A stretch of 64,000 bases of DNA from Thermococcus sp. AM4 (lineage in GTDB: Archaea; Methanobacteriota_B; Thermococci; Thermococcales; Thermococcaceae), in assembly GCF_000151205.2 (NCBI RefSeq), contig NC_016051.1, positions 1,922,001 through 1,986,000 of the forward strand, given 5' to 3'. Positions 12,587 through 20,215 of this stretch are shown here, one piece after another. Under the pieces are notes generated by a model. That model made no database searches, had not been told where the DNA came from, and worked only from the letters and a program-made list of their open reading frames with translations. The translations under genes were made by a program, and so were the position numbers. How positions within the stretch are numbered: position 1 is the stretch's first letter; every line of letters starts with the position of its first letter.

Positions 12587-13924
12587 TCACCGCTCAATTT
12601 CAATGGGTTCCGCCTCCAGGGGGATGTTTTGGAGTTCAAGCTTCACGGGCAGAACCTTCACTTTGAGCGTCTCCACCTTAAGTCCCAGCCCTTCCGCCTT
12701 TAGGTGAATTTCCCGAACGTGGTAGCTTGGTGTGATCCCCATATCCGGAGCGCTGCCGTTCCACCTGATCCTTGAGAGGAAGGGTTTGCTCTCGTTCCCC
12801 GAGAGGAAGGTGCCACCTACGAGGATCGAATCACCATCCTGGATGAGGAAGCTTGGAATACCAGCCCAGTACGCCTTCTCCCATAGGACTTTTCCTTCTC
12901 CATCAAGGTTGAGGATCCACATGCTGTAGTTCTCGATTGTGATGGGGATCCTGGGTACCAGTTTTCCCCCGTATATCCCCGCAACTACAATGCTACCGTC
13001 GATGAGCTCCGCCGCACCTGCGGAATCAATTCCATCGCCCCCATAAGTCTTGGCCCAGCTGACGTTCCCCCTCTCGTCGAAAACGGCAACAAACACGTCG
13101 CTGGTGGATCCCTCCGCCAGAATATTCCCAACTTCGCCGGCAACGACTATCCTCTTGCCGTCCGTCAGGACGACACTTCCGTAGACATCCTCCTGTGACG
13201 TGTAAATCTTGGCCCACTTCACGTTTCCGTTCCCGTCGATGTCGATGAGGCTCATCTGAGAGAAACCATGCTCGAGGTCCAATCCGAGGAGCAAGAAGCC
13301 GCCCTCACCATCGGATGTGATTTCAGCCGGGCCCAGAAACTCGTTGCTTGCGTTTGTGTAGCGCTTTGCCCAGAGCACCTCTCCCCGGTGGTTCAGCTTC
13401 ATAACGAAGGGCCCCACTTTCTCTCTGCTCATCATCAATCCGGCCACCAATATCCCATCGTCGGTGGTTTTGACCGCCCTCACAACCAGGGACACGCTGA
13501 GATTAAAGGTCTCGGCCCATAGCGGTCTCATATCCTGGTCAATTCCGGCTATCAGAAGTTTGTTTTCTATGGAGGTTTCGTTGAAGAGAACCCCCGCGAC
13601 TATTATGCTCTTTCCCGTGGCAAGGCCCCCCTCGAATATGCACTCTAAACCCTCTACTCCGTACGCGACTGCCCTTGAAACGTTCCCGTCTTCGGATAGC
13701 CGTGCTACGAGGCCTTTCCTTGAGTTCGAGATGTTAACCCATCCAACGAGGTAAGTTCCATCGTCGCTCTTAACGAGGCTGGATGCCCCACCCCTCACGT
13801 GATCTCCCGTGTAGACCTTTGCCCAGTATCCCCTCAGTGAGTTTTCCTTGCCCTCGTGCGTCACACCCGAGAGCAGAAGGGCCGCAATCAGAACGACTGC
13901 AATTAGGAAAGATAGTCTCTTCAT
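12587..13924 (-). CDS. Secreted beta-propeller protein
   Basis: A 445-residue protein with a signal peptide (hydrophobic 5-20, then a Ser-Gly before the mature part). The body has about seven repeats of roughly 50 residues built on the pattern VVAG..NxSWAKTYG, similar to delta-60 repeats, which fold as a beta-propeller. The C-terminal 70 residues are not repeat-like and hold repeated xLKVExLxVK strands. The same repeat type forms the N-terminal half of the kinase encoded at 17399, only 3.5 kb away, so the two may be functionally related. Its ligand is unknown. ATG 13924 follows GGTGATCC. Confidence 0.75.
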   Translation of the reverse strand: MKRLSFLIAVVLIAALLLSGVTHEGKENSLRGYWAKVYTGDHVRGGASSLVKSDDGTYLVGWVNISNSRKGLVARLSEDGNVSRAVAYGVEGLECIFEGGLATGKSIIVAGVLFNETSIENKLLIAGIDQDMRPLWAETFNLSVSLVVRAVKTTDDGILVAGLMMSREKVGPFVMKLNHRGEVLWAKRYTNASNEFLGPAEITSDGEGGFLLLGLDLEHGFSQMSLIDIDGNGNVKWAKIYTSQEDVYGSVVLTDGKRIVVAGEVGNILAEGSTSDVFVAVFDERGNVSWAKTYGGDGIDSAGAAELIDGSIVVAGIYGGKLVPRIPITIENYSMWILNLDGEGKVLWEKAYWAGIPSFLIQDGDSILVGGTFLSGNESKPFLSRIRWNGSAPDMGITPSYHVREIHLKAEGLGLKVETLKVKVLPVKLELQNIPLEAEPIEIER

Positions 13925-16046: not shown

Positions 16047-17357
16047 ATGGCGGGTATGATGGAGGTCCTTGAGGAAGTCATAGGCGAGTTTCACGAGTTC
16101 GGGGTTCCTGAGGTCAGGGAAAGGGAACTTAGCCTCCCCACAGATGTGGATGTCGCGGTCTCTGTTTACGGTCTTCGAAGGACTGGAAAAACTCATCTCC
16201 TTTATTTGACCATGAAGAAGCTAATCGGGAACGGCCTGCCAATCCAGAGGATTTTTTACATGAACTTCGAGGATGAAAGACTCGCCGGGCTCTCGGCTGG
16301 AGACTTATCGGCCATAGTCCAGCTCTACTATAAGCACAACCCCAATGCGGACGTGATGTACCTCTTCCTCGACGAGGTTCAAGTCGTTGAGGGCTGGGAG
16401 AGATTCGTGAGGCGTTTGATTGAGGGAAAGAGGGCAAAGGTTTTCATAACGGGCTCGTCCTCAAAACTGCTCTCCAAAGAGATAGCGAGTTCCCTTCGGG
16501 GAAGGACGCTGAGCTTTCAGCTGTTTCCGCTCTCGTTCCGTGAGTTTCTGGGGTTCAAAGGATTCGAGCCGGAAAAGCCCCTAACCGAGAGGAGACGTGG
16601 AATTCTCCTGCGCCTTCTTGAGGAGTACGTCGAGTATGGCGGTTTTCCGGGAATCGTGGACTATTCGCCCCCTCTGAAGATTAGAACCCTGCAGGAGTAC
16701 CTCGACCTGATAGTTTACAGGGACCTCGTTGAGCGCTACGGGGTGGGGAAGGTCTCAGCTTTGAAGGCCCTGATAAGGGTTCTGGCCAGGAACTTCGCGA
16801 GAAAGGCTTCAATCAGGAAGCTCCACTCCCTCGTCTCTTCAACTGGCGTTAAGGTCAGCAGGCCGACACTTGCTGAGTACCTCGCCTACCTTGAGGACAT
16901 CGGCTTCGTTCTCCCTGTCAGAAAATACCATCCGAGCGACGTTGAGTCATTGAGAAGCCAGCCGAAGCTCTACATAGTAGATATTGGCTTCGCAACGGCC
17001 CTTGGAGTCGAAGACACCGGTTACAGGATTGAGAACATCGTCGCCATCGAGCTCCTGAGGAGAAAGCACTACTTCGAGCCGAGGCTTGAGGTTCATTACT
17101 GGGAAGATGGGAGGGGAGAGGTGGACTTCGTGGTTTCGCTTGGGGGGAAGGTTAAGGAATTGATACAGGTCAGCTATGCCCTTGATGAACCTCAAACCCG
17201 TGAGAGGGAACTCCGGGCACTCCTAAGGGCATCAGAGGCACTCCACTGTCGGAATCTGACGGTCGTAACGTGGGGGGAAGAAGGGGTTGAGGAAATCGGC
17301 GGAAAGAGGATTCGCTTTATCCCCCTCTGGCGGTGGCTCCTCGGGGTATACCGATAG
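16047..17357 (+). CDS. AAA_14/DUF4143 ATPase
   Basis: A 436-residue member of the archaeal P-loop ATPase group. Walker A is GLRRTGKT at 42-49, Walker B is LFLDEVQ near 108-114, and a sensor-like TGSSSKLL follows near 135. The C-terminal half has a winged-helix region (about 260-300) and a DUF4143 domain with a PD-(D/E)XK-like core (EVDFVVS near 353). Members are common, patchily distributed and of unknown function; links to mobile elements or stress have been suggested for the family. It is monocistronic behind three phased repeats, which points to tight, perhaps self, regulation. Confidence 0.85.
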   Translation: MAGMMEVLEEVIGEFHEFGVPEVRERELSLPTDVDVAVSVYGLRRTGKTHLLYLTMKKLIGNGLPIQRIFYMNFEDERLAGLSAGDLSAIVQLYYKHNPNADVMYLFLDEVQVVEGWERFVRRLIEGKRAKVFITGSSSKLLSKEIASSLRGRTLSFQLFPLSFREFLGFKGFEPEKPLTERRRGILLRLLEEYVEYGGFPGIVDYSPPLKIRTLQEYLDLIVYRDLVERYGVGKVSALKALIRVLARNFARKASIRKLHSLVSSTGVKVSRPTLAEYLAYLEDIGFVLPVRKYHPSDVESLRSQPKLYIVDIGFATALGVEDTGYRIENIVAIELLRRKHYFEPRLEVHYWEDGRGEVDFVVSLGGKVKELIQVSYALDEPQTRERELRALLRASEALHCRNLTVVTWGEEGVEEIGGKRIRFIPLWRWLLGVYR

Positions 17358-17358
17358 A

Positions 17359-17369
17359 GATAAATATTT
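17359..17369 (+). promoter_or_regulatory. TATA box of the propeller-kinase gene
   Basis: GATAAATATTT begins two bases after the ATPase stop. Transcription would start near 17390, almost at the ribosome site AGGTGA, which supports the TTG start at 17399. Confidence 0.55.
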
Positions 17370-17398
17370 TCCCACCATTTTTCCTTCAGGTGACTCCA

Positions 17399-20215
17399 TT
17401 GGCATACTGGGCCAAGACGTACGGGCCGGGCGTGGCTAATGCGGTGGCGGTTGATAAGAACGGGGATATTATTGTGGCCGGGTATGTTGAAAAAGACAAG
17501 CAGAAAGACGGCTTCGTGGCTCGGCTTGACAGGGACGGGAACGTGAAGTGGTTCAAAGCCTATGGAGGAAAAAGCACAGATGTGTTCAACGACGTTAAGA
17601 TTGCCCCCAATGGGGACGTTATAGTGGTAGGCTATACTGACAGCTTTGGTACTATCGAAAGAGATGTCTGGGTTCTCAGGCTTGACAAGAAGGGTAATGT
17701 AAGATGGCAGAAGACCTACGGGGGAAGCGACTGGGATGAGGCTTACGCGGTTGCCGTAGCGCCAAACGGAGACATCATCGTGGCCGGCATCACTGAAAGC
17801 TTCGGTGCTGGTAGAGAGGATGTTTGGGTTCTCAGACTTGATGGGAATGGTGATGTAAAATGGCAGAAGACTTACGGTGGTAAAGCTTGGGATGAGGCTT
17901 ACGCGGTTGCAATAGCTGAAAATGGGGACATCATCGTTGCTGGTGCTACTAAAAGCTTTGGCACCGGGAGAAGTGACGTTTGGGTTCTTAGGCTTGATAG
18001 CGAGGGCAACGTGAAATGGCAGAAGACTTACGGTGGAAGCTATGATGATGAGGCTAACGCTGTTGCTATCGCACCAAACGGGGACATTATTGTCGCAGGC
18101 GTAATTATTGTCGACATCAATACTGATGATAGTCGGGATGCTTGGATTTGGGTTCTTAGGCTTGATAGCGAGGGCAACGTGAAATGGCAGAAAGTTTACG
18201 GGGGAACATATTGGGATAAGACTAACGCGGCTGTCATTGTCCCAAACGGGGACATTATAGTAGTTGGAGAGACTTGGAGCTTCGGCGCTGGGAGAAGTAA
18301 CTTTTGGATTCTTAGGCTTGACCCTAATGGGGACGTTAAATGGCAGAAAACTTACGGCGGGAGCGGCTACGAGGAGGCATGTGCGGTTGCCATTGCCCCA
18401 AACGGAGACATTATCGTTGCTGGTGCCACTAACAGCTTTAGCGCTGATGATAGTGACGTTTGGGTTCTCAGGCTTCCGCCTAGTGGAAGCTTGCCGGGCT
18501 GTGACTTCTGTGGCAACTCGAACGCCCAAGTAGCAGATACAAGTGCCGTTGTTTATGATACAAATTGTGAAGTCCTGAGTGGAGTCAGGACGTATTATGG
18601 TAAAGTCGGGTTAATCCGCAAGAGATGGGAGTGGCGCACCGAGAAAGTATCTCTTGTTGTAATGGGTTCAAACGCCATAGTCAGATCCCTCAACGTAACA
18701 CCCAAAGTCCAGTGTTATCTCGACCGGAAACTCCTCAAACAAAACATCCAGAACTCCCTCTCAATCAAAATCTCCCAGCTCGTCAAAGAACTTGACTCAG
18801 TTCTCAAGCTCACGGTTAGTAATAACTTTTCAAACTACCTAAAGCTAACCCTCGACTTCTCGTCCAACGACTTCCTCGAAATTGAGTCATCGGTTTTGAA
18901 ACTTCCAGCCCTGAGCAGGGGCAAAAAGGTCACGAAAACGCTGACAGTCACTCCAAAGTACGCTGGAAACTTCGACCTCAGAGTCAAAATCAATGCCATA
19001 GTAGATGGGATAGGAGTCAAGGACGAGAGAGTCATTCCGGTGGAAGTCAGGGAGAAGACGGTAACGCCTCAACCTGTAACTCCTGTCACGCCCGCAACAC
19101 CGGTAACGCCTTCCCAGTCTTACCCGTCCCTAACGGCATTCCCGGCGGAGCTGTTGAGCGTTTACGAGCCGCTGGAGGAGCTCGGCAAGGGCGGCTTTGC
19201 AAGAGTTTTCAAGGTCAAACGCAAGAGGGATGGCGAAATTGTCGCAGTAAAAATCCCGCTCAGCCTTGACCCGGCAACTGGCAAATCCTTCCTGAGGGAG
19301 ATAGAGAACTGGACTAAGCTCAAGCACCCGAACATCGTCAGGGTTTACGACTACAACATTCTGCCAGTGCCGTTCTTCGAAATGGAGTACTGCGAGAGCT
19401 CGCTTGAGAAGCTGCCCAAACCGATGGAACCGAGGGAGGTGGCTTTGCTTATCTTTAACATCGCCGAAGGCCTCAAATACGCTCATTCCAAGGGCATTAT
19501 CCACAGGGATTTGAAGCCGAGCAACATTCTACTCAAAGCCGGAATTCCCAAGATTTCAGACTGGGGGCTCAGCAAGGTCATTAAAGAAACTCGGTCCACG
19601 ACGCTAACGAGCTTCACTCCGTTCTACGCCTCGCCCGAACAGATAAGCCGCTCGAAGTTCGGCAAGACCGACGAGAGGACTGACATCTGGCAGCTGGGAG
19701 TTATCTTCTACGAGCTCCTCACTGGGAAACTACCCTTCGAGGGGGACGACCTAGTAGAACTGAGCTTCGCCATAATCCGGGAGGACCCTTCAAAGCCCAG
19801 CGAGCTCAGCTCCCAAGCAGAACCCTTCGATGACATCGTTATGCGCTGTCTGGCGAAGCGGAAGGAAGACCGCTATCAGAACGTCGGCGAGCTTCAGGCC
19901 GAGCTTGCGTTAATCCTCGGGATGGAGTACAAGGAAGAGCTGAAGAAGTCGATAACGACCAATGACCTTTCAAGAAGCGCCTACTACGCCGGCGAGCTCG
20001 TTCTCATCAACATGAAGATTGGGGATTTGGTGGGGGCTTATAAGTACCTCGGCGACCTTGAGGTCTACGCGCGCTCTGAAGTGAAGGGCGAGATAAGCGC
20101 GCTGAAGGAGCAGGTCAGGCTCAGGCTGGAGGAAAGACTTCCGCTCCCTGTGGAACTGATTGAAAAGGCCGAGATTCTCGTTCACAAGGTTAAACTCGGC
20201 TATGGGAAACTCTAA
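17399..20215 (+). CDS. Beta-propeller/Ser-Thr protein kinase fusion
   Basis: A 938-residue protein. The TTG start follows AGGTGA by five bases. Residues 1-360 are seven repeats of about 50 residues (pattern WVLRLDxxGNVKWQKTYGG...APNGDIIVAG), which should close into a seven-bladed propeller. A spacer with several cysteines follows, then a beta-sandwich-like region (about 440-550) and a linker of TP repeats. The eukaryotic-type kinase domain runs from about 590: GKGGFA at 596, Lys618, HRD at 702-704, DWG (for DFG) at 721-723, then SPEQ. All core catalytic residues are present, so it should be active. A helical tail ends it. No signal peptide or membrane segment is visible. Confidence 0.88.
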   Translation: MAYWAKTYGPGVANAVAVDKNGDIIVAGYVEKDKQKDGFVARLDRDGNVKWFKAYGGKSTDVFNDVKIAPNGDVIVVGYTDSFGTIERDVWVLRLDKKGNVRWQKTYGGSDWDEAYAVAVAPNGDIIVAGITESFGAGREDVWVLRLDGNGDVKWQKTYGGKAWDEAYAVAIAENGDIIVAGATKSFGTGRSDVWVLRLDSEGNVKWQKTYGGSYDDEANAVAIAPNGDIIVAGVIIVDINTDDSRDAWIWVLRLDSEGNVKWQKVYGGTYWDKTNAAVIVPNGDIIVVGETWSFGAGRSNFWILRLDPNGDVKWQKTYGGSGYEEACAVAIAPNGDIIVAGATNSFSADDSDVWVLRLPPSGSLPGCDFCGNSNAQVADTSAVVYDTNCEVLSGVRTYYGKVGLIRKRWEWRTEKVSLVVMGSNAIVRSLNVTPKVQCYLDRKLLKQNIQNSLSIKISQLVKELDSVLKLTVSNNFSNYLKLTLDFSSNDFLEIESSVLKLPALSRGKKVTKTLTVTPKYAGNFDLRVKINAIVDGIGVKDERVIPVEVREKTVTPQPVTPVTPATPVTPSQSYPSLTAFPAELLSVYEPLEELGKGGFARVFKVKRKRDGEIVAVKIPLSLDPATGKSFLREIENWTKLKHPNIVRVYDYNILPVPFFEMEYCESSLEKLPKPMEPREVALLIFNIAEGLKYAHSKGIIHRDLKPSNILLKAGIPKISDWGLSKVIKETRSTTLTSFTPFYASPEQISRSKFGKTDERTDIWQLGVIFYELLTGKLPFEGDDLVELSFAIIREDPSKPSELSSQAEPFDDIVMRCLAKRKEDRYQNVGELQAELALILGMEYKEELKKSITTNDLSRSAYYAGELVLINMKIGDLVGAYKYLGDLEVYARSEVKGEISALKEQVRLRLEERLPLPVELIEKAEILVHKVKLGYGKL
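17402..18480 (+). repeat. Seven intragenic propeller repeats
   Basis: Each unit is about 50-57 codons. Some copies are nearly identical at DNA level: a 44-base stretch beginning TGGGTTCTTAGGCTTGATAG is identical at about 17981 and 18149. This indicates recent duplication or gene conversion between blades. Confidence 0.8.

Follow-up and report, generated by a model that had tools for sequence, protein, structure and literature searches.

A predicted cytosolic propeller-kinase of Thermococcus sp. AM4 related to the kinases of archaeal ESCRT loci

Few inputs of archaeal Hanks-type kinases are known. A gene in a 64,000-nucleotide stretch (hereafter the window) from the thermophilic archaeon Thermococcus sp. 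AM4 encodes such a kinase joined to an N-terminal beta-propeller, and it raises the question of where the protein resides and what its propeller may recognize. The original prediction, made from the letters of the window, was a soluble ligand-sensing kinase. We find that solubility is supported by a gene start common to relatives and by the joint loss of signal peptide and membrane span across the family, while ligand sensing is compatible with the variation seen on the propeller but unproven.

Gene, domain order and predicted location

The open reading frame at positions 17399-20215 of the window (plus strand) begins with TTG, encodes 938 amino acids and was located in a complete genome of 2.09 Mb. 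Its product is ordered as a delta-60 propeller, a cysteine-bearing neck, an Ig-like domain, a TP-rich linker, a Hanks-type kinase and a helical C-terminus. The features of the locus are as follows.

12587-13924, minus strand: diverged propeller protein with a signal peptide and no kinase (hydropathy, profiles)
16047-17357, plus strand: AAA_14/DUF4143 ATPase (PF13173, PF13635), ending 41 bp 5' of the kinase start
17362-17370, plus strand: AT-rich AAATATTTT, a possible archaeal TATA element (read from the sequence; putative function)
17389-17393, plus strand: GGTGA, resembling a ribosome-binding site, 5 nt 5' of the TTG start (sequence)
17399-20215, plus strand: propeller-kinase coding sequence, without signal peptide or membrane span (open reading frame, Pfam and NCBIfam profiles, hydropathy)
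17399-18496, plus strand: seven-bladed delta-60 propeller, residues 1-366 (TIGR02608 and PF17164 above cut-off, strand pattern of the model)
18497-18730, plus strand: neck, C368-x2-C371-x18-C390 (cysteines conserved in alignment)
18731-19066, plus strand: Ig-like beta domain, residues 445-556 (AlphaFold strands, tblastn)
19052-19153, plus strand: TP-rich disordered linker, residues 552-585 (low pLDDT in both models)
19154-19888, plus strand: Hanks-type kinase with a full set of catalytic motifs, DWG replacing DFG (PF00069, residue check, PknB fold match)
19883-20194, plus strand: C-terminal helical domain (model), corresponding to the part of ESCRT-locus kinases described as PCI-like (PMC10936438)

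The propeller matched the TIGR02608 delta-60 repeat model at 116.6 bits (cut-off 76.5) and PF17164 at 39.4 bits (cut-off 27). An AlphaFold model built from ten sequences gave seven four-stranded blades, with an N-terminal strand (residues ~4-10) supplying the last strand of blade 7, and the regular blades are 52-79% identical to one another. Both profiles and the modelled blades thus bear out the seven delta-60-like repeats first proposed. The closest solved fold is CylK (PDB 7ron), an alkylating enzyme that shares only the propeller fold, at ~24% identity. In the neck, for which the model shows short strands, C368, C371 and C390 are invariant in the ten-sequence alignment (A2). The third cysteine is present in 14 of 21 signal-less propellers and in none of 27 with a signal peptide. 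A cysteine-bearing spacer and a TP-rich linker (~552-585) therefore do precede the kinase, as had been read from the letters.

Signal peptides and spans were called from hydropathy alone. By this measure neither was detectable in the protein, including between propeller and kinase; the maximum (1.91, residues 222-240) lies within blade 5 and is not a membrane span. The start falls on the same residue as that of other signal-less genes, immediately before YWxKxY, so that misannotation does not explain the soluble form, and a stronger GGAGGTGG occupies the equivalent upstream place in several signal-less relatives. A conserved upstream start that would add a membrane span was also sought: the frame stays open only as far back as a stop at 17288, and no clear signal peptide or span is encoded in between (best 17-residue hydropathy 1.15). 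It could be argued that the start is nonetheless wrong and that the cell makes a receptor kinase that is anchored or exported, as 27 of 48 propellers of this type carry a signal peptide; against the upstream frame, the conserved start, the separate lineage of signal-less propellers and the lack of a span in the propeller-kinase, we consider this extremely improbable, and a missed start was rejected as a candidate. The predicted cytosolic location is well supported by these criteria. N-glycosylation sequons were tried as a location marker and set aside, as they showed no difference and the automatic split misplaced several proteins. In four relatives (L048, L053, L055 and L056) a short N-terminal extension ending in SPVVVIV is possible, though it is not a clear signal peptide.

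Signal-less and membrane-anchored relatives

The pairing of propeller and kinase among archaea was surveyed within the phylum, using 115 genomes, a set of equal size at phylum and class level, and named loci, one of them a Methanothermococcus contig. Orthologues and paralogues with the same architecture were recovered, and the signal-less module is carried by ~12 of the 115 genomes, counted as matches reaching the first query residues. Full propeller-kinases of Thermococcales have either both a signal peptide and a membrane span or neither. Among those with at least six blades, 14 lack both and 10 have a signal peptide, accompanied by a clear span in nine and a weak one in the tenth (L065). 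The association, counted over kinase rows, gave a Fisher value of 5e-6, which serves only as a guide since one two-kinase protein was entered twice and some sequences are near relatives.

Four signal-less propeller-kinase genes and two membrane-anchored relatives occur in the AM4 genome itself. These relatives, and the ~50% identity to ESCRT-locus kinases described below, are the wider context that the original prediction missed. The propeller-PEGA-kinases at 251342-255400 and 281469-286055 likewise carry a delta-60 propeller N-terminal to a related kinase, but differ in having a signal peptide, PEGA repeats and a membrane span, which put their propeller outside. One signal-less paralogue (266054-270166; L012:6057-10166, minus strand) has two kinases, the first with HGN and the second with HLD; the first is a pseudokinase in which the catalytic Asp is replaced by Asn.

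The signal-less propellers form a separate lineage, and most have the first-blade sequence VARLD.DGNVKWFKTYGG...DVKIAPNGDIIVAG, which is absent from exported propellers. The kinases attached to them belong to several clades; in a quick tree, from which both clade support and this count were taken, well-supported branches forced at least six label changes. Two further fusions were seen. In another genome, a gene 47 bp from a Vps4 gene (L022:394-3225, minus strand) encodes a signal-less propeller, an Ig domain, the linker and a few kinase-start residues, followed by pentapeptide repeats and an Ion_trans_2 pore. In a frame of 523 aa (L058, minus strand, in G007), a shortened propeller runs on without a frame break into a C-terminal portion of an AlbA_2/HTH protein, and the counterparts of these two parts are separate neighbouring genes in the AM4 genome. 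Together with the several kinase clades, the two fusions indicate that the propeller module has been re-used.

The protein at 12587-13924 had been described as a signal peptide-bearing propeller paralogue. Its signal peptide was recovered (hydropathy 2.63), while as a delta-60 propeller it is weak and diverged, scoring 20 bits against TIGR02608, below the cut-off.

The kinase half and ESCRT-locus kinases

PF00069 matched residues 589-827 (E = 2.4e-49). The catalytic residues are K618, E634, H702-R703-D704, N709 and D721-W722-G723, placing Lys618, HRD and DWG at the residue numbers first assigned. The glycine loop, VAIK lysine, alpha-C glutamate, HRD, catalytic asparagine, Asp-x-Gly, F-helix aspartate and conserved arginine are all present; the departures are DWG for DFG and SPE for APE. 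In 123 relatives the equivalents of K618, E634, N709, P746, E747, D762 and R825 are invariant, while D704 is kept in 121 and the tryptophan of DWG in 122. DWG is thus the rule in this family. Casein kinase 2, an active enzyme, likewise has DWG, so the motif does not count against activity; a pseudokinase was rejected for this protein.

Pairs including this protein were near saturation. In four pairs of relatives with less saturation (kinase dS 0.3-0.75), dN/dS was 0.04-0.08 for the kinase and 0.16-0.32 for the propeller. By these ratios the kinase is under strong purifying selection, which with the intact residues supports the predicted activity; the kinase is probably active.

The kinase N-lobe was not folded in the first full-length AlphaFold model, built from ten sequences. 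A second model of residues 445-938, from 25 sequences, folded well (mean pLDDT 84.9), and the fold search returned mostly kinase matches, with TM-scores of up to 0.87 by target length for PknB kinases. PknB-type Hanks kinases are the best match in both sequence and fold, although PknB differs in having a span and, at its C-terminus, PASTA domains that are extracellular; against the NCBIfam PASTA-kinase model the protein scored 198 bits, far below the cut-off of 450. Ser/Thr kinases of Deinococcus and Streptomyces likewise combine a beta-propeller with a kinase, but their PQQ-type propellers are of another family (PMC1262709). The AfsK kinase model, far below its cut-off, matched only the kinase part.

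Over residues 445-938 the protein shares ~50% identity with kinases of matching Ig-kinase-helical layout that also carry an N-terminal span, many of which adjoin Vps4-like genes; the tblastn alignment runs on through the Ig-like region into such membrane-anchored kinases (e.g. L028). These resemble the Ser/Thr kinases described for 'Main' ESCRT systems in Thermococcales and other euryarchaea; most of the kinases described have a transmembrane segment, Ig-like repeats, a kinase and a PCI-like helical domain (PMC10936438). The assignment of their C-terminal domain as PCI-like and of their Ig domain as adaptin-appendage-like comes from the same survey, which also published ESCRT loci with such kinases and phosphatases. 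The present protein has the Ig-like, kinase and C-terminal helical domains of this group, and its kinase is, by sequence, a well-supported homologue. Unlike the typically membrane-associated 'Main' kinases, it lacks the N-terminal membrane segment by hydropathy, has a signal-less propeller and has no ESCRT genes nearby. Kinases of the Ig-kinase-helical type were thus already known; the soluble propeller-bearing member is what the present comparison adds.

In the AM4 genome, an ESCRT-type locus at 249-286 kb of C1 (L011-L013) holds most of the kinases. Two Vps4-like ATPases encoded there score above the Vps4_C cut-off (1e-7 and 2e-8), whereas the match of a Snf7-like protein is weak and falls below cut-off (0.0039). 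A PP2C phosphatase and a coiled-coil protein complete a gene set that, judged by these matches, corresponds to the published 'Main' systems. Several soluble propeller relatives adjoin Vps4 in loci of this type: the soluble propeller-kinase at 260338-263208, in the AM4 locus, overlaps a Vps4 gene, and a soluble relative in another genome (G032) lies 52 bp from one. No Vps4, ESCRT-III or phosphatase gene was found near the window copy. Its kinase clusters with six other soluble kinases (98% support, quick tree), for which no ESCRT neighbours were seen within 4 kb or the shorter available flank. With no ESCRT neighbours at the gene, any ESCRT role of this copy is one that we infer from homology. 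Thermococcales were said to lack ESCRT-III in a 2021 review (PMC10117752) and were placed in the Main clade by the 2024 survey (PMC10936438). The review also cites an unpublished result that disruption of Vps4 homologues in T. kodakarensis had no effect on vesicle production (PMC10117752).

Variation of the propeller and its possible role

Across 55 regular blades the ten most variable positions were 8, 9, 10, 12, 14, 29, 31, 37, 38 and 47. When placed on the strands of the model, nine of these map to the DA and BC loops or next to them, usually the top face. A calculation by hand, done once the data had been seen, puts the probability that nine or more of the ten would land by chance among these 19 of the 52 positions at ~2e-4, and a test of mean entropy between top and bottom loops was borderline (p = 0.053). 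At the variable positions dN/dS was ~0.7-0.9, compared with 0.06-0.13 in the framework; the contrast suggests diversification, and the values, which do not exceed 1, do not show positive selection. Repeat number in the family ranges from 6 to 8. This concentration of variation on the top face is why ligand sensing fits.

We put the following reading at somewhat better than an even chance: the protein is a cytosolic Ser/Thr kinase belonging to the same Thermococcales family as the 'Main' ESCRT-locus kinases, and its propeller recognizes a protein or cargo inside the cell. Where those kinases have a membrane anchor at the N-terminus, it would carry the signal-less seven-bladed propeller instead. 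The most likely ligand of the propeller's top face is a protein within the cell, either cargo or a partner. Binding could be relayed through the neck, the Ig-like domain and the flexible TP linker, bringing kinase domains or substrates together, and this clustering may switch on phosphorylation. The C-terminal helical domain probably serves in oligomerization or docking. The window copy, in a clade without ESCRT neighbours, may have targets of its own. The lack of nearby ESCRT genes and the unpublished Vps4 result from T. kodakarensis weigh against this reading. Recognition by the propeller is the most likely mechanism, with about an even chance for its details. In haloarchaeal ESCRT systems, proteins with propeller and Ig domains have been described as likely cargo binders (PMC10936438). 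Vesicle-coat and adaptin-like proteins have a layout similar to this propeller-Ig arrangement, which makes cargo recognition a concrete, testable hypothesis.

The same variation could instead mark an intracellular recognition receptor, in which a fast-changing propeller detects foreign or self proteins and the kinase signals defence. Patchy presence in the phylum and changing blade number would suit such a role, published work connects highly repetitive propellers with innate immunity in prokaryotes (PMC9218822), and the adjoining ATPase (16047-17357) matches the PADLOC candidate profile PDC-S01 at 2e-108. ATPases of the AAA_14/DUF4143 or ATPase_2 type also flank several other orphan soluble kinases; the genome has ~45 of them, however, which makes the association only a lead. 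PADLOC otherwise returned generic kinase matches (mad6, PD-T4-6) that reflect the kinase fold, and membership of a defence system was rejected on that basis. As the same propeller also occurs in ESCRT-locus relatives, dN/dS stays below 1 and the loop test is borderline, we regard the defence reading as unlikely.

A small molecule or metal bound by the propeller, or a metal or redox signal at the neck cysteines, might alternatively set kinase activity. The confinement of the third cysteine to signal-less propellers and the relative that joins this propeller to a channel-like pore point that way, but the top loops are variable, no conserved pocket is kept and the three-cysteine motif is missing in the soluble relatives L053, L055 and L078; we give metabolite or ion sensing little credence. 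Alternatively, recombination in a large repetitive family may have shuffled this gene recently, leaving a paralogue that is mostly dispensable and has little function of its own. Identity does shift along the protein: the kinase N-lobe is 89-93% identical to those of L015, L048, L056 and L077 while the C-lobe is only 66-68% identical, and the neck and Ig domain are nearest to the ESCRT-locus paralogue L011 and its relative L017 in G007. Recombination among paralogues is the simplest reading of these shifts, and the patchy distribution and the truncated and fused relatives agree with dispensability; the low kinase dN/dS in the less saturated pairs and the intact motifs argue the other way and make a dispensable gene very unlikely.

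Recognition of an internal protein or cargo by a cytosolic kinase remains our preferred reading. A broader proposal, which we hold to be improbable, is that the signal-less, top-face-variable propeller is a portable cytosolic recognition module of Thermococcales, carried on ESCRT-family kinases and an ion channel, and that it forms a diversifying receptor system selecting cargo for, or guarding, membrane remodelling. In this family one receptor design exists as matched natural variants, some within the cell and others outside it. By homology and gene order, the family also connects a soluble propeller kinase with the ESCRT systems of euryarchaea, which are poorly understood. This protein may be an internal cargo or ligand sensor, an idea that the gene family makes testable.

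Other arrangements of the propeller were also noted in the family. Two exported proteins (L082 and L084) have 14 to 21 delta-60 blades, apparently as several propellers in tandem. A membrane-anchored propeller-kinase (L052) lies on a contig labelled Methanothermococcus from a single-cell genome, and may reflect transfer or contamination.
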